A stretch of 64,000 nucleotides of DNA from positions 1,178,001 through 1,242,000 of the forward strand of contig NZ_CP032489.1 of NCBI RefSeq assembly GCF_003600625.1, in the 5' to 3' direction. The notes under the pieces are model-generated. The model had not been told where the DNA came from. It ran no database searches and worked only from the letters and a program-made list of their open reading frames with translations. This DNA is from Arachidicoccus soli (GTDB taxonomy: Bacteria > Bacteroidota > Bacteroidia > Chitinophagales > Chitinophagaceae). The translations under genes and the position numbers were made by a program. Of this stretch, positions 18,854 through 26,509 are shown piece after piece; positions within the stretch are counted from its first letter, which is position 1, and every line of letters begins with the position of its first letter.

Positions 18854-18885
18854 CCTCATTCATCTTCCAACATGTATATTCAGTC

Positions 18886-18918
18886 AAAAGCCGGCAATTT
18901 TGCTGGCTTTTGTTTTTT
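18886..18918 (+). terminator. terminator after the Oar-like receptor
   Basis: Stem aaaagccggca / tgctggctttt (one G-U pair) spanning 18886-18911, followed by gtttttt. It lies inside the 5' extension of the next open frame, which argues that the next gene starts at 18962 and not at 18872. Confidence 0.8.
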
Positions 18919-18961
18919 ATCTTTACTGTGGCAAAGTGACTTAACTATAAAATTCTCTAGA

Positions 18962-19267
18962 ATGAAAAATTATGATACCGTTTCTGAAGCTGTCAATGAT
19001 TTATGTAAAAGAGGGTATGTCCACGATTTCAATATCAAAGAGGAATGTATTGTCTGTGGCAATACCGGCGTATCCCTCTCACCGGAAGAATTTGAAATAG
19101 ATGAGGTACATCGCTTCGAAGGCGATACCGATCCCGGTGATGAAATGATTGTTTATGCCATCTCAGCAAAACATATTACGGCAAAAGGTGTGTTGGTCAA
19201 TGCATTTGGGACTTACTCGGATACGCAAACTTCACGTATTGTAAAGCGTTTGTTTTTGTCACATTAG
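18962..19267 (+). CDS. small conserved protein often labelled 'phosphoribosylpyrophosphate synthetase'
   Basis: 101 residues, M-K-N-Y-D-T-V-S-E-A-V-N-D-L followed by a CIVCGNTG pair of Cys and an acidic EFEIDEVHRFEGDTDPGDE stretch. I recognise the pattern as a small Bacteroidota family commonly auto-annotated as phosphoribosylpyrophosphate synthetase, but it is far too short for Prs and has no PRPP-binding loop, so that name should not be trusted. Start chosen at ATG 18962: the longer frame from 18872 would translate through the terminator of the preceding gene. No signal peptide or membrane segment. Function unknown. Confidence 0.75.
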   Translation: MKNYDTVSEAVNDLCKRGYVHDFNIKEECIVCGNTGVSLSPEEFEIDEVHRFEGDTDPGDEMIVYAISAKHITAKGVLVNAFGTYSDTQTSRIVKRLFLSH

Positions 19268-19314: not shown

Positions 19315-19331
19315 ATGAAATATTTTTTCAT
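19315..19331. promoter_or_regulatory. inverted repeat upstream of rrf2
   Basis: atgaaa-N5-tttcat, a 17-base AT-rich dyad about 40 bases upstream of the rrf2 -7 element. Size and composition are compatible with an Rrf2-type dimer site (autoregulation), but no consensus is available here and AT-rich dyads arise by chance. Confidence 0.3.
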
Positions 19332-19371
19332 AAAAAAGATAAAAAACTCTTTTAATTGTAGATTATTATTT

Positions 19372-19379
19372 TACCTTTG
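19372..19379 (+). promoter_or_regulatory. -7 element of rrf2 (TACCTTTG)
   Basis: Exact TAnnTTTG match 20 bases before the ATG at 19400. No well-spaced TTG/TTTG -33 box was found, which is common for regulated promoters. Confidence 0.55.
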
Positions 19380-19399
19380 CACCGAACAAGCAAAATCAA

Positions 19400-19834
19400 A
19401 TGTTTTCAAAAACCTGTGAATATGCTATAAGAGCGATTATCTTCATTGCATTGCAATCGAAGGAGGGTAAGAATGTTTCTATTAGAGATATTGCTAAAGG
19501 CATCGATTCCCCTGAACATTTCATTGCAAAAATACTGCAGGAAATGAGTCGCAAAGGTTTTGTAAATTCTATAAAAGGCCCCAATGGAGGTTTTTATATG
19601 GATAAAAAAACACTTAAAATTACCATTGCAGATATCGTATCGCATTTTGATGGCGAAAAAGTTTTTACAGCTTGTGCCATTGGATTAAAACAATGTTCCG
19701 AAGCCAAACCTTGCCCACTTCATGAACAATATAAACCCATTCGCAAACACATTAATGATATGTTGCGGGGAGCGCAAATTGGCAATATCAGCGAGCAATT
19801 AGATATAGAATTAGCTTATTTGAAATTGAAGTGA
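19400..19834 (+). CDS. Rrf2-family Fe-S transcriptional regulator (NsrR-like)
   Basis: 144 residues. The winged helix is recognisable from the start (MFSKTCEYAIRAIIFIA, VSIRDIAKGIDSPEHFIAKILQEM, GFVNSIKGPNGGF). A three-Cys cluster motif follows at C92, C99 and C105 (CX6CX5C), the region that ligates an Fe-S cluster in IscR, NsrR and RsrR. The spacing matches none of those exactly as I remember them, so the paralogue type is open. It opens a co-directional cluster of NO/O2-related genes and the next gene begins 46 bases later, which favours an NO- or redox-sensing role. No isc/suf genes are nearby, which argues against an IscR function. Confidence 0.9.
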   Translation: MFSKTCEYAIRAIIFIALQSKEGKNVSIRDIAKGIDSPEHFIAKILQEMSRKGFVNSIKGPNGGFYMDKKTLKITIADIVSHFDGEKVFTACAIGLKQCSEAKPCPLHEQYKPIRKHINDMLRGAQIGNISEQLDIELAYLKLK

Positions 19835-19880
19835 TTTTTTTGATATAATAGAAGATAAAAAAGTATTAATATCTATTAAA

Positions 19881-22040
19881 ATGAATAAAATGAGTCTTAC
19901 CCCCCCTACCTCTAAACTATCGGTCAGCACGCTTTTATTATTACTTGTTAGAAGCATTCCATTGCATGCACAAACGACCCCGCCTGCATTACAAGAGGCT
20001 TCAGTTACCAATACGGGTCTTTGGATTTTTTTAGCATTAATGATTGCGGCTGTATTGAGTGTTCTCATCTGGCTTAAAAATAGTGTACGAGAAATCAATC
20101 AAACGACTAAACAACTTAAGAAGCCAGTCGAAGAAGAAAAGATTAATCAATATATGAAAAACTTTGACAGTGCTCAAATAGACAGCTTTTTGAAATTTAA
20201 AGACAAGCAGAAAAAGCCAAATAATAATAACACAACTATTGTACCTGCTATTATTTTAATGGCTGCATTGCTGTTGCCCGCTACATCATTGTTTGCACAA
20301 GATGCAAGAGCAACTCCTACAAAGTCAGTATTGGGAGAGGGTGGGGTTATTATTACGATAATTTTGGTTTTAATTCCAATATTACTCGCTCTGGTTTTGA
20401 TGGCTGTAAAGACCTCTAACGTATTACGGCAATTTAGAAATAAACGAATGACAGAGGAGGCTGAGAAACTTGCCGAACGACTTAAAGAAGCTACAGATGA
20501 TAGTTTGAAAGAAGTATTGAAAAAAAGGAAATCTGCATTGGACTTTCAATTGACTCGTAACGAATTGTCTGGTACAGCAACTGCTGAGGATAAAAAAGGG
20601 TTGTTAAATATTAATAGCAATACGGAAATAGCAGTGGTGAACCCTAAAAAGAAAGCGACAAAACGGCCAAACGTTGACCCAGCTTTATCCAAAATGATAC
20701 TTTGGTATATAGGCTGTGCTGCCTTTTGGCTCGTGGTGGGGACTTCTGTGGGTGAGTATTTGGGTATAAAATTCGTGGCACCCGATGTGGATCATGTAAG
20801 CTGGCTAAGCTTTGGCCGGTTGAGGCCTGTACATACCAATATTGTATTTTGGGGATGGTGCTCTTTAGCGATGCTTGGATTGGGTAATTATATTGTACCT
20901 AGAGTTGGAAACAATAAGTTGGCTAGTATGAAATTGGGATGGTGGACATTGATTCTGATTAACCTTACCGTAATCTTAGGCTCTATTTGTTTAATGGCCG
21001 GCATCAGCAATATTGGAGAATATAGAGAATATATCTGGCCTGTAATGTTACCTTTTGCAGTTGGTTTACTGCTTACTTTAATTAACTTTTTACGGACGAT
21101 TGCTAAGCGAAATACCAAAGAGATATATATCGCGAACTGGTATATTGTAGCGGCAATTATTTTTACTATAGTTATTGTTTTGGTAGCCTATCTACCCTGG
21201 TGGCAGGATGGTCTAGGTGAAACCATTGCACAAGGTTACTATATGCACCAAGGAGTGGGAATGTGGTTTATGCTATATACTTTGGGTGTGGTGTATTATT
21301 TCTTGCCACAACAATTAAACAAACCAATTTATTCTTATAGTTTGGGTATTCTCGCATTCTGGACGCAAATTCTTTTTTATACATTGATTGGTTCGCATCA
21401 TTTCGTGTTTAGCCCGATACCTTGGTGGTTACAAACTGTTGCCATTGTTGGAAGTATGGGTATGGTGATTCCGGTAATTGCAGGTACTACCAACTTTTTA
21501 ATGACTTTTAAAAGTGGATGGCATAAAATTGCCGGGAGTTATACACTGCCTTTTTTCTTAGTTGGGATTATCTGTTATTTTACCGGTTCATTGCAGGGAA
21601 CGGCGGAAGCCTTTCGCTCAACTAATTTAATGTGGCATTTTACTGACTTTACCGTTGCGCACTCTCATTTGACGATGTATGGTATTATATGTTTCTTTAT
21701 GTGGGCTGGTATATATGCTCTTGTACCAAGACTCACAGGCAAGGAGCCTCCACAAATCACTGTAGGTGCACACTTTTGGCTAGCCTTAATAGGTATGTTA
21801 TTTTATGTAATACCGTTGATGCTGGGAGGGACCATGAAAGGTCTTATGTGGATACAGGGAAAACCATTTATAGATGGTGTTATAGCAATGGCACCGTACT
21901 GGCTTTGGCGTGCCATCGGTGGCAGTCTAATGTGGTTGGCGCATATTGTATTTGCCTACAATTTTTACAGAATGTTGGCAACACCAAAAGTGGTGGATGT
22001 GAAAGAAACCGCCATTGCCCGCCTTAGTGAAGAAAAGTAG
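19881..22040 (+). CDS. cbb3-like haem-copper oxidoreductase subunit I with N-terminal membrane extension (O2 or NO reductase)
   Basis: 719 residues. From about 269 onward it is a CcoN-like 12-helix core: low-spin haem His H318 (FGRLRPVHTN), CuB ligands H456 (YYMHQG) and H506-H507 (LIGSHHF), and the two haem ligands H594 and H596 (AHSHLTMYG). Y500 sits six residues before H506, the position of the cross-linked Tyr of cbb3 oxidases. The Glu that NorB carries four residues after the first metal His is Gly here, as in CcoN. Two departures: the CcoN 'FEG' Glu before the helix-X ligands reads Gln (LQG, Q572), and AHxHLxxYG looks more like NorB than CcoN (GHVHAG). Residues 1-268 are extra: two successive signal-like/transmembrane units (about 13-66 and 120-177). 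Alignments are from memory. The family is secure; O2 versus NO chemistry is not. Confidence 0.85.
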   Translation: MNKMSLTPPTSKLSVSTLLLLLVRSIPLHAQTTPPALQEASVTNTGLWIFLALMIAAVLSVLIWLKNSVREINQTTKQLKKPVEEEKINQYMKNFDSAQIDSFLKFKDKQKKPNNNNTTIVPAIILMAALLLPATSLFAQDARATPTKSVLGEGGVIITIILVLIPILLALVLMAVKTSNVLRQFRNKRMTEEAEKLAERLKEATDDSLKEVLKKRKSALDFQLTRNELSGTATAEDKKGLLNINSNTEIAVVNPKKKATKRPNVDPALSKMILWYIGCAAFWLVVGTSVGEYLGIKFVAPDVDHVSWLSFGRLRPVHTNIVFWGWCSLAMLGLGNYIVPRVGNNKLASMKLGWWTLILINLTVILGSICLMAGISNIGEYREYIWPVMLPFAVGLLLTLINFLRTIAKRNTKEIYIANWYIVAAIIFTIVIVLVAYLPWWQDGLGETIAQGYYMHQGVGMWFMLYTLGVVYYFLPQQLNKPIYSYSLGILAFWTQILFYTLIGSHHFVFSPIPWWLQTVAIVGSMGMVIPVIAGTTNFLMTFKSGWHKIAGSYTLPFFLVGIICYFTGSLQGTAEAFRSTNLMWHFTDFTVAHSHLTMYGIICFFMWAGIYALVPRLTGKEPPQITVGAHFWLALIGMLFYVIPLMLGGTMKGLMWIQGKPFIDGVIAMAPYWLWRAIGGSLMWLAHIVFAYNFYRMLATPKVVDVKETAIARLSEEK

Positions 22041-22091
22041 AGAGCCTTTACAAAAAAAGATAAATAAATCATTAATCTTAATCAAATAAGA

Positions 22092-23093
22092 ATGGAATTC
22101 TTTGATAATCATAAAAAACTTTTTGGCACAGCAGCTGCATTTTTTATAGGGCTAACAATATTAGTCGCTATTGTACCTGCATTTCAAAATCAAAATAATA
22201 ATAAGCCTTTACCCGATGCAGTACCTTTAAGTCCCGATGCGGTAAAAGGGAAAGCCATATATGTGGCAAATGGTTGTGTCGGTTGCCATACACAGCAAGT
22301 ACGCGATATTTATATGGATAAAGTTTGGGGCTCCCGACCAAGTATTGCAGCAGATTATGCTGACGACCATCGTTTAAATGTTTGGCAAAATACGGCTACT
22401 TTAATGGGCACCGAACGTACCGGCCCGGATTTAACCAATATTGGCGAAAGGCAACCAAGTAAAGATTGGAATCTTGTGCATCTGTTCGACCCTAGAATTT
22501 TGGTTAAAGAATCCGTGATGCCTGCATATCCTTATTTATTTATTTATAAAGATTCTGCTGCAAAAGGAGACGTTGTGGTAAATATTCCTACAGAATATAT
22601 GAATGGAAAAACAGGAAAATATGTAGCCTCTAAAAATGCCATGTATTTATTAGCTTATTTGCAATCTTTAAAACAAACAAAACTACCTGATGGTATCAGC
22701 GCTCCGGCATTTTTGTATAAACAAAAAGTAGCAACTGCTACTGGTGGATCTGCAAAACCGGATGGTGCTGCTTTATATACCGCCAACTGTCAAAGTTGTC
22801 ACCAACCGAATGGAGAAGGGTTGCCAGGAGCATTTCCTCCATTGAAAGGTGATCCCGTTGTTACAGGTGACAATTTGGAATTGTATGTAGATATTATTAC
22901 AAATGGCTATACTGGACTTGAAAAAAAAGGATATGGTGCAATGCCATCTGTGGCAAAAACAGCAAATTTAACAGCTGAAGAAGTTACTGCAATAATGAAC
23001 CATGAACGCACAAGCTGGGGAAATAATGCAAAAGAAGTGACTGTAGAACAAATTAAACCTTTATATGAAGCGGCTAAATTAAAAACACCATAA
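22092..23093 (+). CDS. membrane-anchored dihaem cytochrome c, CcoO-CcoP-like fusion
   Basis: 333 residues with one N-terminal anchor (about 10-31). The first c-domain is CcoO-like: haem motif C62-V-G-C65-H66 (NGCVGCHTQQVRD), then GSRPSIAADY, MGTERTGPDLTNIG and axial Met in ESVMPAYPYLF (M143), all hallmarks of the cbb3 monohaem subunit. The second domain is a separate class I cytochrome (C233-Q-S-C236-H237, axial M284 in GAMPS) resembling one CcoP domain. It would deliver electrons to the preceding subunit I, 51 bases upstream. Canonical Bacteroidota cbb3 operons, as I know them, carry a CcoN-CcoO fusion and a separate CcoP; here the split is different and no ccoG/I/S assembly genes are near. 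Confidence 0.88.
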   Translation: MEFFDNHKKLFGTAAAFFIGLTILVAIVPAFQNQNNNKPLPDAVPLSPDAVKGKAIYVANGCVGCHTQQVRDIYMDKVWGSRPSIAADYADDHRLNVWQNTATLMGTERTGPDLTNIGERQPSKDWNLVHLFDPRILVKESVMPAYPYLFIYKDSAAKGDVVVNIPTEYMNGKTGKYVASKNAMYLLAYLQSLKQTKLPDGISAPAFLYKQKVATATGGSAKPDGAALYTANCQSCHQPNGEGLPGAFPPLKGDPVVTGDNLELYVDIITNGYTGLEKKGYGAMPSVAKTANLTAEEVTAIMNHERTSWGNNAKEVTVEQIKPLYEAAKLKTP

Positions 23094-23225
23094 ATATGAA
23101 ATTGACTTACAGATTGAACAATATTTGAATGATTTACATATGAAATCGAGTATGATAAACTGTCTCACACAGAGAGATGAATAAACGAGGCCTTAGCCAA
23201 CAAATAGAAAAAATAAAAAATTATA

Positions 23226-23477
23226 ATGAAAAAGTATATATTATTGATAGCCTTTAGCTTTACTGCTTATGTAGCAATCGCTAATTCATTATTCTGTGAG
23301 GCGCAACCTTCTAGGAACTTAAATGGAAGGAGTCAGGGGGGCATACTGAGTTATACTGCTATTTTTATTATGGTCATTATTACAGTTGGCACTTTATTCC
23401 TTTCTGTGAAATTGATTTTTAAACCAGGAGAAAAGTCAAAAACGCACATTAAAAGAACTATTTTAAAAGAAGAATAA
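23226..23477 (+). CDS. small membrane protein of the haem-copper cluster
   Basis: 83 residues: signal-peptide-like N-terminus (MKKYILLIAFSFTAYVAIANS), a short polar linker, a transmembrane helix (about 42-63, LSYTAIFIMVIITVGTLFLSV) and a basic tail. I do not recognise the family. The size and one-helix topology are reminiscent of CcoQ/CcoH-type accessory subunits, but no sequence signature supports that. Stop and the next start are one base apart (23477/23479), so it is translationally linked with the following gene. Confidence 0.65.
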   Translation: MKKYILLIAFSFTAYVAIANSLFCEAQPSRNLNGRSQGGILSYTAIFIMVIITVGTLFLSVKLIFKPGEKSKTHIKRTILKEE

Positions 23478-23478
23478 C

Positions 23479-23886
23479 ATGGAATCAAACAGCACCATTT
23501 TTATTTTTATTGACGATGAGACAAAACCCATTGCTGAATTCAAATCGCCCGTTAATTTTGAATTGGATACGACTAAATTGGTCGATGGAGCACATACTTT
23601 AAAAATTGTTAGCAAAGGTTCTGATGGCGTAGAAGGTATTCGATTGGTGCCATTCGAGGTACGGAATGGACCAGCTATATCGATTGAAGGTATTCGTGAA
23701 AATGCGGTAGTGGATGGTATATTGCCCTTGATGATTAATGCTTATAGTAAAGGCAATTCAAAAGAGTTTAATATTATTGGCAGCGAAACACCACATAGTA
23801 TACCTTCTTGGGTATGGATTTTGATTATTGGTTTCTTTGGGTGGGCACTGTATTATTTATTTATGTATATTCATTTAAAGCAATAG
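23479..23886 (+). CDS. Ig-like domain protein with C-terminal membrane anchor
   Basis: 135 residues with no signal peptide. An all-beta domain (about 5-100; FIFIDDETKPIAEFKSP, LVDGAHTLKIVSKGSDG, VRNGPAISIEGI) resembles the Ig-like domains that speak of 'd-G-x-H-t-l' strands. A short PSWVWILIIGFFGWALYYLFMY helix (about 112-133) anchors the C-terminus. Similar proteins in the Bacteroidota are, to my recollection, sometimes labelled cytochrome c because relatives continue into a haem domain; no CXXCH is present here. It starts one base after the previous stop and ends six bases before the haemoglobin gene, so it is surely part of the operon. Possibly an accessory subunit of the haem-copper complex (inference). 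Confidence 0.65.
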   Translation: MESNSTIFIFIDDETKPIAEFKSPVNFELDTTKLVDGAHTLKIVSKGSDGVEGIRLVPFEVRNGPAISIEGIRENAVVDGILPLMINAYSKGNSKEFNIIGSETPHSIPSWVWILIIGFFGWALYYLFMYIHLKQ

Positions 23887-23892
23887 AAGAAG

Positions 23893-24288
23893 ATGTTAGA
23901 TCAAAAAGAGATATTATCAATTGAAGATATTAAACTGCTGGTAGATACTTTTTATGAAAAGGTTCGACAAGATAAGCTGATAGGGCCTATTTTTGAAGAG
24001 CGCATTCAAAATCGCTGGCCGGAACATTTGGAAAGGATGTATCGTTTTTGGCAAACCGTACTATTAGATGAACATACTTATTTTGGAAGCCCTTTTCCAC
24101 CACATGCTCAATTGCCGGTCGTTTGGGAGCATTTTGAAAGATGGCTTGAATTATTCAATGCAAATATTGACGAAAAGTTTTCTGGAAAAATAGCGGAAGA
24201 AGCTAAATGGCGGGCTAATAAAATGGCAGAGATGTTTAATTATAAAATACAATATTACAGAGACAATAACGCTAAGCCTATTTATTAG
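23893..24288 (+). CDS. group III truncated haemoglobin
   Basis: 131-residue haem protein of the trHb3 class that binds O2 and NO and is linked to nitrosative-stress defence in bacteria such as Campylobacter (Ctb). Class features: FYEKVRQDKLIGPIF near residues 20-34, RMYRFWQTVLL at 48-58, YFGSPFPPHAQLPV with candidate proximal His71 at 63-76, and EHFERWLELF at 79-88, all characteristic of group III. No transmembrane segment. It sits six bases after the Ig-like gene, inside the Rrf2-headed cluster, supporting a role in NO or O2 handling. Confidence 0.93.
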   Translation: MLDQKEILSIEDIKLLVDTFYEKVRQDKLIGPIFEERIQNRWPEHLERMYRFWQTVLLDEHTYFGSPFPPHAQLPVVWEHFERWLELFNANIDEKFSGKIAEEAKWRANKMAEMFNYKIQYYRDNNAKPIY

Positions 24289-24449
24289 GGTATATCTTAT
24301 TCTTGATAATTGTTAGCATAAAAGTCATTTCTGTAAAATACGCTTCAAGATGAAAGGTTTATTATAAAATTTACCACTATTATCAAAAAGGAATATAAGA
24401 TGTATAATGGTAAGTCCCATTAGACATTTAAATCCATAAAAATTAACGA

Positions 24450-24911
24450 ATGAAATCGAATAAAGGATATAACGTAGCTATTGCTTCGACGTTTATATGG
24501 ATTGGTTTTTTATGTGCGATTAGTTTTATGGAAGCATGGCTTAAGTTTCGTGCACCTGGTGTCACTATTGAGATTGGTTTAGGTATTGGTAAATTAGTAT
24601 TTGGTGCATTAAATAAAGTAGAAATCGTTTTGTCAATTATTATCCTATTTAATTTATTGGTGAATAATATTGGGATGCCTTTTGCCCAAAAGGTATACTT
24701 TTATGTGGCTTTCGTTATCGTTATTTTAGAGACTTTTTGGGCTTTACCCGCATTAGACAAAATAGCCAATCTCGTGATTCAGGATCGACCTTTACCTGCA
24801 TCAAATCTCCATATTTATTATGTGGTAATGGAAGTAATTAAATTAGGCTGCCTTATTCTTTTCGGCTTATATCTACTCAATAAAAAATCTTCCATTTCTT
24901 TAAAAAAGTAA
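24450..24911 (+). CDS. four-helix integral membrane protein of unknown function
   Basis: 153 residues, four predicted transmembrane helices (about 8-29, 47-72, 80-101, 123-144). Conserved-looking polar features inside the membrane are Glu28 in FMEAWLKFRAP, Lys56/Glu58 in NKVEIV, Glu94 in LETFWALP and the HIYYVVMEVIK stretch. I do not recognise a named family. It follows a 161-base gap and ends one base before the ric gene, so it is co-translated with it. The charged intramembrane residues could suggest haem, quinone or ion contact, but this is speculation. Confidence 0.7.
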   Translation: MKSNKGYNVAIASTFIWIGFLCAISFMEAWLKFRAPGVTIEIGLGIGKLVFGALNKVEIVLSIIILFNLLVNNIGMPFAQKVYFYVAFVIVILETFWALPALDKIANLVIQDRPLPASNLHIYYVVMEVIKLGCLILFGLYLLNKKSSISLKK

Positions 24912-24912
24912 T

Positions 24913-25650
24913 ATGAAAAATATAGATGAAAATTCAATAGTGGGCTCGATCGTTGCTGATGATTATCGTATGTCTTCTGTTTTTGTAAAATTTGGTATTG
25001 ATTTTTGTTGCCAGGGAAATCGCTCTATCGCTGAGTCCTGTAAAGCAGAAGATATAAATATGAATGAAGTTATAGATGCATTGAAACAGCAATCGGAAAA
25101 TCCAACAACTACTCGTACAGAAGACTATGAAAGTTGGTCTTTAGATTTTTTGGCACAACATATCATACAGAAGCATCATAAATATGTAACAACGCAAATT
25201 CCGATCCTTCAAACTCTTCTTGCCAAAATAGTGCAAGTGCATGGGGCTCTTCACCCTGAGTTGAAACAAATTGAAAATTTATTCAATATCTCTGCAGGTG
25301 AATTTACAATGCACATGAAGAAAGAGGAGTTAATGCTTTTCCCATTTATTCGTAAAATGGTGATTACAAAAGAGACCAATGGAGAATTGCCAATTGCGCA
25401 TTTTGGCAAAATAGAAAATCCAGTGCATTTAATGATGCAAGAGCATGATGGAGAAGGCGAGCGGTTTAAAGAAATGGCAGCATTGAGTAATAATTTTACG
25501 CCACCAATAGATGCTTGTAACACTTACAGAACGACTTATAAATTATTAAAAGAGTTTGAAGAGGATCTGCATTTGCATATTCATTTGGAGAACAATATTT
25601 TATTTCCTAAATCCATTGAATTGGAAGAAGAACTTTCGAAAAATAGTTGA
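24913..25650 (+). CDS. ric: iron-sulfur cluster repair di-iron protein (Ric/YtfE/ScdA)
   Basis: 245 residues. The N-terminal DUF542/ScdA_N domain (about 5-60) carries the conserved FGIDFCCQGNRS motif (C32, C33) and C43. The hemerythrin-like domain follows with the expected His/Glu set: HIIQKHHKYV, VHGALHPEL, FTMHMKKEELMLFPFI, MMQEHDGEGERF and LHIHLENNILFP. The family repairs Fe-S clusters or releases iron/NO after nitrosative or oxidative damage, and in many bacteria is under NsrR or related control. The start codon lies one base after the previous stop. Strong support for the NO-stress reading of this cluster. Confidence 0.95.
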   Translation: MKNIDENSIVGSIVADDYRMSSVFVKFGIDFCCQGNRSIAESCKAEDINMNEVIDALKQQSENPTTTRTEDYESWSLDFLAQHIIQKHHKYVTTQIPILQTLLAKIVQVHGALHPELKQIENLFNISAGEFTMHMKKEELMLFPFIRKMVITKETNGELPIAHFGKIENPVHLMMQEHDGEGERFKEMAALSNNFTPPIDACNTYRTTYKLLKEFEEDLHLHIHLENNILFPKSIELEEELSKNS

Positions 25651-25663
25651 AACTTTAGAAACC

Positions 25664-26023
25664 ATGTTATCCATAAAAATAAAACGTATTTATGAGCCCA
25701 TCTGTGATAAGGATGGCTATCGTATTTTAGTAGATCGGCTATGGCCGCGTGGAATAAAAAAAGAGACTGCTAATCTGAATGCTTGGATGAAAGAACTCGC
25801 ACCATCGACCTCCTTAAGAAGATGGTTTAACCATGAGCCTGAAAAATGGACTGACTTTAAAAGGGCCTATCTGAAAGAATTAAAACAACAAGAGGAAACT
25901 GTAAAAGAACTCTTAGATATCATAAAAAAACACCAAACCATAACGCTCTTATATAGCGCCAAAGATGAGAAACACAATCAAGCGCTGGTGTTAGAAAAGT
26001 ATATTCAATCACTGTTGAAATAA
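25664..26023 (+). CDS. DUF488 family protein
   Basis: 119 residues of the DUF488 family: IKRIYEP...GYRILVDRLWPRGIKKE near residues 4-29, then LNAWMKELAPSTSLRRWF and TLLYSAKDEKHNQALVL. The start is taken at ATG 25664, 13 bases after the ric stop; a longer frame from 25556 would overlap ric by 95 bases and add a non-conserved extension. Function is unestablished. Members are repeatedly found next to hemerythrin/NO-response genes, which matches this neighbourhood; whether it acts on a nucleotide or a protein is not known to me. Confidence 0.88.
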   Translation: MLSIKIKRIYEPICDKDGYRILVDRLWPRGIKKETANLNAWMKELAPSTSLRRWFNHEPEKWTDFKRAYLKELKQQEETVKELLDIIKKHQTITLLYSAKDEKHNQALVLEKYIQSLLK

Positions 26024-26029
26024 TGCGAA

Positions 26030-26509
26030 ATGCCTAGAAAGCCCATTAAAAGAAGTCCACAAATATTGCCACTTTCGCGGGAACATCATTTTAGCCTTTT
26101 ATTTTGTTGGAAATTAAGGCAGGGAATAAAACGCACAATTGAAGAAGCACGTATTGTGAAATATATAGATTATTTCTTTCACCATTTTATTTTACCCCAT
26201 TTTAACGAAGAGGAAAATACACTTTTTTATTTGTTACAAGATGAAAAAGTAGATAAGGCACTCAAAGAACATATCTCTATAAAAGAATTGGCAAATTCAA
26301 TATTAAATGCTCAAACAAATACTAGTAATGCGCAAATAGAGGAATTGGCAAATTTAGTTGAAATGCATACGAGATATGAAGAACGGGATTTATTCCCTTA
26401 TATTGAAGAGCGCTTGTCATTAGCACAATTAAATGAAGTGGGTCGCAAGCTAGGACAATCTGAAATTCTTGCAGATAATTTTGAGGATGAGTTTTGGATA
26501 ACGAAATAA
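26030..26509 (+). CDS. hemerythrin-domain (HHE) cytoplasmic protein
   Basis: 159 residues, a single four-helix hemerythrin-like domain with di-iron ligand pattern: SREHHFSLLF (about 16-25), YFFHHFILPHFNEEENTLF (about 48-66) and VEMHTRYEERDLFPYIE (about 107-124). Proteins of this group bind O2, NO or iron. It closes the cluster, six bases after DUF488, and is the second hemerythrin-type protein in it besides Ric. It lacks the DUF542 domain, so it is not itself a Ric protein. Confidence 0.88.
   Translation: MPRKPIKRSPQILPLSREHHFSLLFCWKLRQGIKRTIEEARIVKYIDYFFHHFILPHFNEEENTLFYLLQDEKVDKALKEHISIKELANSILNAQTNTSNAQIEELANLVEMHTRYEERDLFPYIEERLSLAQLNEVGRKLGQSEILADNFEDEFWITK

Follow-up and report, generated by a model that had tools for sequence, protein, structure and literature searches.

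A candidate nitric oxide/Fe-S-stress-inducible, non-canonical C-family terminal oxidase module under an NsrR-like Rrf2 regulator in Arachidicoccus soli and other Bacteroidota

Regulons that respond to nitric oxide (NO) typically include ric, nnrS-type, flavohaemoglobin, and nos genes, and the cited portion of the same source places an oxidase, Aox of V. fischeri, within a predicted NsrR regulon (PMC1274295). Clade II nos scaffolds in metagenomes contain Rrf2 genes, according to the section cited of PMC6264515. On the enzyme side, the cited parts of three further sources describe canonical cbb3 oxidases as strongly inhibited by NO and as slow NO reductases (PMC9266656), authentic cbb3 enzymes as carrying a mandatory Glu, with an "unknown group" of C-type enzymes outside them (Muntyan et al. 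2015, via PMC5492636), and NO reductases (NORs) as lacking the Tyr link and retaining a Glu (PMC10256718). Bacteroidota made up 53% of "terminator" genomes in one survey, and 9% of Bacteroidota with denitrification genes combined nir and nosZ with no nor (PMC12569097, cited portion). Here we analyze a stretch of 64,000 nucleotides (nt) from Arachidicoccus soli, called the window below (assembly GCF_003600625.1, contig NZ_CP032489.1, positions 1,178,001 to 1,242,000), in which ten co-directional genes with rrf2 at their head (19400-26509) bring a cbb3-like subunit I together with a globin, Ric, and a hemerythrin-like protein.

We propose, with moderate confidence, that this module encodes an NO/Fe-S-stress-inducible, non-canonical C-family terminal oxidase together with NO-protective proteins, under the control of an NsrR-like Rrf2 regulator. 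The module has a conserved gene content, a common palindrome, and an enzyme with intact O2-reductase ligands and most of the proton-path residues. Its open reading frames (ORFs), with protein lengths in amino acids (aa), and the two predicted regulatory elements in front of them are as follows.

19334..19353, no strand assigned: predicted Rrf2 operator AAAAGATAAAAAACTCTTTT; footprinted palindrome, exact site G000:C1:1197334-1197353, ending 46 nt before the rrf2 ATG
19372..19379, + strand: putative Bacteroidota -7 box TACCTTTG, from sequence; TAnnTTTG follows the palindrome in 35/42 loci
19400..19834, + strand: Rrf2-family regulator (PF02082 94.9 bits; TIGR00738 99.7)
19881..22040, + strand: subunit I, C-family haem-copper oxidase, 719 aa (PF00115 284 bits)
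22092..23093, + strand: di-haem cytochrome, FixO/CcoO plus CcoP-type cytochrome c domain, 333 aa (FixO 95.8, Cytochrom_C 60.6, Cytochrome_CBB3 51.6 bits)
23226..23477, + strand: 83-aa small membrane subunit (no Pfam match; no credible NCBIfam match)
23479..23886, + strand: 135-aa subunit, N-terminal beta-rich domain plus putative CcoP-like transmembrane anchor (weak FixP_N, 13.1 bits, cut-off 24.9)
23893..24288, + strand: group III truncated haemoglobin (PF01152 25.9 bits, cut-off 21; PDB 2ig3, E 3e-17)
24450..24911, + strand: 153-aa multi-pass membrane protein (no Pfam match; no credible NCBIfam match)
24913..25650, + strand: Ric di-iron Fe-S repair protein, ScdA_N plus HHE (TIGR03652 233 bits, cut-off 204.7; PDB ScdA, YtfE)
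25664..26023, + strand: DUF488 protein, inactive N3i subclade (DUF488-N3i PF22752 140.1 bits)
26030..26509, + strand: HHE/hemerythrin-like protein (PF01814 39.8 bits, cut-off 25.3)

Consecutive genes are separated by 46, 51, 132, 1, 6, 161, 1, 13, and 6 nt; seven of the nine gaps lie within the 1-60 bases that a first-pass annotation, made from the sequence letters, had called the usual spacing, and its ORFs and gene order hold as well. Profile searches agree with the families it had named for Rrf2, the CcoN-like subunit I, the FixO/cytochrome c fusion, Ric, DUF488, and HHE, and its trHb3 call fits the globin's closest solved relative, the group III truncated haemoglobin 2ig3. It had also read two small membrane proteins, and one of these changes: the 135-aa protein is, in a low-confidence model, a beta-rich domain followed by one C-terminal transmembrane helix. 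The 83-aa and 153-aa proteins had no match in Pfam and no credible one in NCBIfam.

Orthologues of subunit I at 54% identity or more occur in 29/195 genomes of the same family, with the window's own genome counted, and the remaining CcoN-type matches among those listed there fall at 28-32%. In a phylum-wide sample, 9/296 genomes (again counting the own genome) have a match of at least 53%, and in six of these nine the protein is short and lacks the N-terminal extension. Scanning GTDB genomes yielded 80 named loci, the top-ranking of over 580, from Chitinophaga, Pedobacter, Mucilaginibacter, Flavobacterium, Kaistella, Algoriphagus, Pontibacter, and other genera, as well as from a few Verrucomicrobiota and one metagenome-assembled genome labelled Azovibrio. 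Removal of 5 duplicates from 109 loci left 104 distinct subunit I loci, mostly of Bacteroidota and some of Verrucomicrobiota.

Across these 104 loci, the cytochrome is found with subunit I in 100, Rrf2 within 7 kb in 70, and the globin in 52. Ric or DUF2249-type clusters are found in 32, HHE proteins in 30, homologues of the 153-aa protein in 18, and flavohaemoglobin-type proteins in 11, the last assignment resting on one representative. The 83-aa subunit is present in 86/104 loci (76/80 of the named loci, some truncated) and the 135-aa subunit in 74/80 named loci; its cluster covers 90/104 loci but mixes in another protein, which leaves the exact count uncertain. The entire ten-gene set recurs in 3/28 other loci of the family (L035, L036, L038), and the accessory tail is variable elsewhere. 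As a control, we took 20 ordinary CcoNO operons of the same family, a selection among the CcoN places listed in the same-family search. Rrf2 neighbors one of them and Ric six, and the globin, HHE, and 153-aa proteins none, compared with Rrf2 22, globin 18, HHE 8, 153-aa protein 11, and Ric 12 at the 28 carrier loci; the window is not among these, and some are on short contigs, which makes their neighbor counts lower bounds. Because Rrf2, globin, and HHE are enriched over the controls and the palindrome is common, the grouping exceeds chance. The expectation of the first-pass annotation that orthologues would keep their Rrf2, globin, and Ric neighbors is borne out for Rrf2 (70/104; controls 1/20) and globin (52/104; controls 0/20). 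It fails in part for Ric, which is not a specific marker because it also stands beside ordinary CcoNO operons (6/20 versus 12/28 carriers, p 0.55).

Two further genes were seen around these loci. One, encoding a 131-aa protein, lies at 18872-19267 of the window, immediately 5' of rrf2; in L035 and L036 its homologues sit inside the module, between cytochrome and 83-aa subunit, and in a few further loci they lie nearby. The other encodes a hexameric tyrosine-coordinated haem protein (PF11534; L157 10878-11114) and is near the core in 6 loci.

The palindrome AAAAGA-N8-TCTTTT before rrf2 is the new element of this analysis. Its consensus in the regions upstream of 58 adjacent rrf2 genes is AATAAAAGA(C/T/G)-A/T-rich-(G/C/A)TCTTTTATT, located about 41 nt 5' of rrf2 across loci. 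With two mismatches at most, the core occurs in 42/58 of these regions versus 3.5 in shuffles, and exactly in 22/58 versus 0.0; none of 20 regions upstream of ordinary CcoNO has it. The arms are 78-100% conserved and the spacer varies more, a contrast as would be expected for a binding site. TAnnTTTG, which we take to be the Bacteroidota -7 box consensus, begins 12-19 nt past the palindrome in 35/42 loci (shuffles predict 1.7), so the predicted operator would overlie the upstream promoter element. From position and co-occurrence, we infer that Rrf2 is the protein that binds the palindrome, which presumably differs from the NsrR consensus.

Further sites extend the predicted regulon. The window's genome, a single contig of 4.10 Mb, contains nine exact core sites versus three for the reversed pattern. 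Apart from the module's own site, one alone combines the longer T...A arms (TAATAAAAGA...TCTTTTATTG) with a promoter position: it lies at 3180874-3180893, 57 nt 5' of an operon, here Ric2. Its products are another Ric, built as DUF2249-ScdA_N-HHE; a protein of the DUF1858/DUF2249 type; an oxidase-like membrane protein of 426 aa; and a factor for Fe-S assembly. The operon itself was recovered as L188 7642-10818 (3.178-3.181 Mb of the own genome); its 426-aa protein weakly matches PF00115, at 33.8 bits, and gave zero matches with the NnrS model.

We also searched 20 of the 28 other carriers and 20 of the 166 non-carriers. The extended pattern TAAAAGA-N8-TCTTTTA has 23 sites in the carriers versus 6 reversed, and 4 versus 6 in the non-carriers. 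Sixteen of the 23 precede the module (8), a DUF2249/DUF1858 operon (4), DUF488 (2), HHE (1), or a cytochrome c-nosZ pair (1), where two sites counted as regulatory (L236, L246) overlap mechanical ORF calls judged spurious or over-early in start. The remaining sites comprise four inside genes, two before genes of G107 read by eye as NDH-2 and NuoE, and one in G007:C32. At L246, around position 1501 in genome G084, the palindrome stands 5' of a cytochrome c gene that is followed by nosZ; this suggests Rrf2 control of nitrous oxide reduction in that genome. Predicted sites fall before the module, Ric/DUF2249, HHE, and nosZ genes, and the set looks like an NsrR-like regulon. The regulator itself has a three-cysteine motif, C-x6-C-x5-C-x2-H, and all 53 of its relatives above 150 bits in the named loci share the pattern C-x5..7-C-x4..6-C-x2-H, the three cysteines sought for an NsrR.

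The oxidase core of subunit I covers approximately residues 272-700 and is preceded by a membrane/helical extension of 270 aa at the N-terminus, part of which seems to be a separate small upstream protein in Mucilaginibacter pineti (L118 5809-6183). The TIGR00780 ccoN score is 243.9 bits, under the cut-off of 583.15. In Foldseek, the model (pLDDT 73.7, with a poor N-terminus) has its best matches in cbb3 CcoN, at TMt 0.86, and matches the cNOR 4xyd at TMt 0.83. Under P. stutzeri CcoN numbering, H60, H207, H257, H258, and H345 are present in 104/104 subunit I sequences and H347 in 103/104; we take these histidines to be the ligands of the low-spin haem, haem b3, and CuB. The active-site Tyr251 is likewise present in 104/104, its cross-link being invisible in sequence, as are the K-path residues Tyr223, Thr293, and Tyr317.

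For the partners of a cbb3 enzyme, the module provides a FixO domain with one fused cytochrome c domain and a sub-cut-off match to FixP_N only. Two CxxCH motifs are found in 76/77 relatives of the cytochrome. The 135-aa subunit has Glu103 in 74/74 relatives and a Pro six residues later in 72/74, the spacing of Glu49...Pro55 in CcoP, and we read it, with its FixP_N score below cut-off, as a probable CcoP membrane anchor minus the cytochrome. Its model (pLDDT 71.5, pTM 0.41) was used for secondary structure alone, and PDB searches gave a best E of 0.02 by structure and nothing better than 0.12 by alignment.

Could the enzyme instead be a dedicated NO reductase, a new C-family type that replaces NorB/qNOR in denitrifying Bacteroidota? 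We consider this improbable, and its active site is the first reason. The position of the NOR Glu211, four residues after the first FeB histidine, is Gly in 104/104 sequences versus Glu in 4/4 qNORs of the same family, which carry Ala or Ser at the position of the active-site Tyr (4/4). An intact Tyr and three CuB histidines with the NOR Glu missing is the reverse of what NORs have in the cited portion of PMC10256718, and by its anatomy subunit I would not be a NOR.

Genome content speaks on both sides of the same question. Both nosZ and nirK are richer in carriers (nosZ 23/29 versus 72/166 non-carriers, p 5e-4; nirK 12/29 versus 19/166, p 3e-4), with p values that treat related genomes as independent; the 95 nosZ genomes are 91 over the cut-off and 4 with fragmented genes, and the 31 nirK genomes are 22 over the cut-off and 9 at 171-212 bits. 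At least 5/23 nosZ-positive carriers have nosZ within 41 kb of the module, for which a simple, post hoc binomial gives a chance of about 6e-5, and six carriers have nirK and nosZ without any NOR-like gene sought. Together with the nosZ operon behind a palindrome and the slow reduction of NO by canonical cbb3 oxidases (PMC9266656, in the part cited), these associations favor an NO reductase. Compensation, however, is lacking. Among nirK-positive genomes, the module occurs in 6/16 with NOR-like genes and 6/15 without, in a census that joins PF22085, incomplete alone, with a divergent NorB-like family, B-family eNOR, sNOR, gNOR, and nNOR lying outside it. Since it is equally frequent in both, the module is not a simple NOR replacement; by PF22085 alone, NORs are even slightly commoner in carriers (6/29 versus 12/166, p 0.03), the opposite of replacement. 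A module that substitutes for NorB is not supported, as it does not track absent nor genes in nirK-positive genomes. The own genome also argues against this role: within the same survey, it gave no match for NosZ, NirS, qNOR/cNOR, or the divergent NorB, and for NirK a weak partial match only (for NirS, PF02239 gave weak partial matches only and the gene was taken as absent). Because these matches are missing, NO would probably arrive from outside in A. soli. The first-pass annotation had suggested a dedicated NO-defence or low-O2 system whose specialised cbb3-like reductase takes the place of NorB/qNOR. An Rrf2-headed NO/Fe-S-stress module is upheld by the neighbors and by the palindrome common to the Ric2 operon; the stand-in for NorB/qNOR is not, given Tyr251 and the three CuB histidines in 104/104, the NOR Glu in 0/104, and the even split of 6/16 and 6/15.

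The NOR census turned up a separate candidate. A NorC-like cytochrome and a NorB-like protein are paired at L042 1272-3042, and also in L225, L226, and L247. The NorB-like gene is present in 32/195 genomes, 25 of which have nosZ, within about 12 kb in at least 8. The protein keeps GHH and THGTHITVAH, and WKxxGxMVGxWN replaces the HxxxE FeB motif in 4/4 sequences checked; the pair may be a NOR whose FeB site is altered.

Alternatively, the enzyme could be an ordinary micro-aerobic cbb3-type oxidase whose stress-gene neighbors mirror life at low O2 rather than NO. Its intact O2-reductase ligands and cbb3-like fold would fit, as would the respiratory inventory of A. soli, in which no ordinary cbb3 was found and the oxidases are one A-type subunit I, cytochrome bd, and the module enzyme, next to the weak PF00115 protein at 3.178 Mb. 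We nonetheless regard this alternative as unlikely. At least 21/29 carriers hold an ordinary CcoNO elsewhere, and the 20 ordinary CcoNO operons, one Rrf2 excepted, lack Rrf2, globin, and HHE neighbors; the palindrome, absent before them, is common to Fe-S repair operons. The subunit I clade (22 sequences) is also separate, with UFBoot 100 and a branch of 0.70, at about 30% identity to CcoN, in a tree whose root and deep order were not used because the branches to the NOR and A-type outgroups are very long. We place subunit I in a non-canonical clade of the C family.

We thus return to a stress-inducible oxidase module as the favored reading. In unstressed cells, Rrf2 with its Fe-S cluster would occupy the palindrome and cover the promoter. 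NO, probably the signal, or other damage to the cluster would free Rrf2, and the module and the Ric2 operon would be switched on. Electrons would pass from the two c haems to haem b and on to the haem b3-CuB site of a membrane-bound, cytochrome-c-fed enzyme, where O2, its probable main substrate, would be reduced. The enzyme may be NO-tolerant or have a useful NO-reductase side activity, and would sustain respiration during NO stress and low O2, while the globin, Ric, and HHE proteins would clear NO or mend Fe-S and di-iron damage.

Several observations weigh against this reading. Characterised cbb3 oxidases are strongly NO-inhibited in the cited part of PMC9266656, so that tolerance of NO would be a novel feature. 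In the enzyme, K-path Ser240 is Gly in 101/104 sequences, and Glu323 is Gln in 104/104 versus Glu in 21/21 Bacteroidota CcoNO. Six carriers, the own genome and five others, have neither nirK nor nosZ. As to the operator, of the nine core sites of the own genome, five are intragenic and two others are located 29 and 131 nt 5' of genes with no evident NO link; 8/20 carriers have no exact extended site (12/20 have one); and 46/104 loci fall outside the set with an adjacent, co-oriented rrf2, 33 of which have no site with two or fewer mismatches upstream of subunit I. Rrf2 itself scores 46.5 bits against the NCBIfam NsrR model (cut-off 182) and 65.2 bits against the IscR model (cut-off 207.55), falling short of both cut-offs. 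Finally, in the non-carrier G005 (L254, L257), the palindrome stands 5' of genes for an IscS-like class-V aminotransferase (Aminotran_5) and a CDGSH protein, pointing to Fe-S status as such.

These last results bear on a third alternative, in which an IscR-like Rrf2 responds to the supply of Fe-S clusters or to oxidative damage and NO is one trigger of several. The IscR model does outscore the NsrR model, the cysteine spacing of the module's Rrf2 resembles that of IscR, and the targets include an Fe-S assembly factor in addition to the G005 genes. On the other side, NO-responsive regulons typically contain Ric, nnrS-type, flavohaemoglobin, and nos genes in the cited portion of PMC1274295, and we hold this alternative to be very unlikely.

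Gln323 is common to all 16 other non-canonical C-family sequences sampled and therefore marks non-canonical enzymes generally rather than the subunit I clade alone. Non-canonical CcoN-like enzymes with Gln323 include those on the megaplasmid of Cupriavidus metallidurans CH34 (L216), in Sinorhizobium meliloti (L222), and in Komagataeibacter xylinus (L218); the Cupriavidus enzyme clusters with five Bacteroidota sequences in the tree.

A bolder version of the stress-inducible oxidase would see in a widespread, unrecognised class of the C family an NO-inducible reductase for the Bacteroidota. Gln323 and an altered proton path would adapt this oxidase to work in and consume NO, which would explain NO removal in nirK- and nosZ-positive strains without nor, and its regulator would be distinct from NsrR and able to govern nosZ. 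We regard this as speculative and rather doubtful.

A conserved operon in which NO-protective genes go with a non-canonical terminal reductase, and which in one genome is also linked to nosZ, provides concrete candidates for how such Bacteroidota respire and survive around NO. It offers a testable operator and regulon for a Bacteroidota Rrf2 regulator, and C-family enzymes that form a natural series lacking the Glu described as mandatory for cbb3. With related gene sets in many Bacteroidota, the module is a clear candidate for an NO-induced respiratory enzyme. We recognised no paper on the module operon, the enzyme clade, or the operator in the open-licence literature, of which few matches were opened, so that this is weak evidence of absence.

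Set beside known systems, the module enzyme is closest to canonical cbb3 oxidases, with which it shares the fold of subunit I, the metal ligands, the active-site Tyr, most K-path residues, the CcoO-like and CcoP-like c haems, and the CcoP-type Glu, here on the 135-aa subunit. It differs from them in Glu323 to Gln, Ser240 to Gly, and His243 to Ala; in the low identity and N-terminal extension of subunit I; in a CcoO fused to one cytochrome c domain; in a CcoP-like anchor that lacks the cytochrome and has a beta-rich, probably cytoplasmic domain; and in its operon and regulator. With cNOR and qNOR it shares a fold, through the match to 4xyd, but it lacks the FeB Glu, has the Tyr, and uses a di-haem CcoO-type donor rather than NorC. 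It probably belongs to the "unknown group" of Muntyan et al. 2015: if Glu323 is the mandatory Glu of authentic cbb3 in the cited part of PMC5492636, the Gln323 of all non-canonical sequences sampled would set them apart in the same way.

As a regulon, the module resembles the NsrR regulons of Proteobacteria, in which an Rrf2 regulator controls, through one operator, ric/dnrN, nnrS, globin, and in some cases nos genes (PMC1274295, cited portion). It differs in a regulator far under the cut-off of the NsrR model, in a 426-aa membrane protein of the Ric2 operon that is weakly PF00115 and without an NnrS-model match, and in taking in the operon of a haem-copper reductase. For this last feature, Aox in the predicted NsrR regulon of V. 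fischeri may serve as a precedent in principle.

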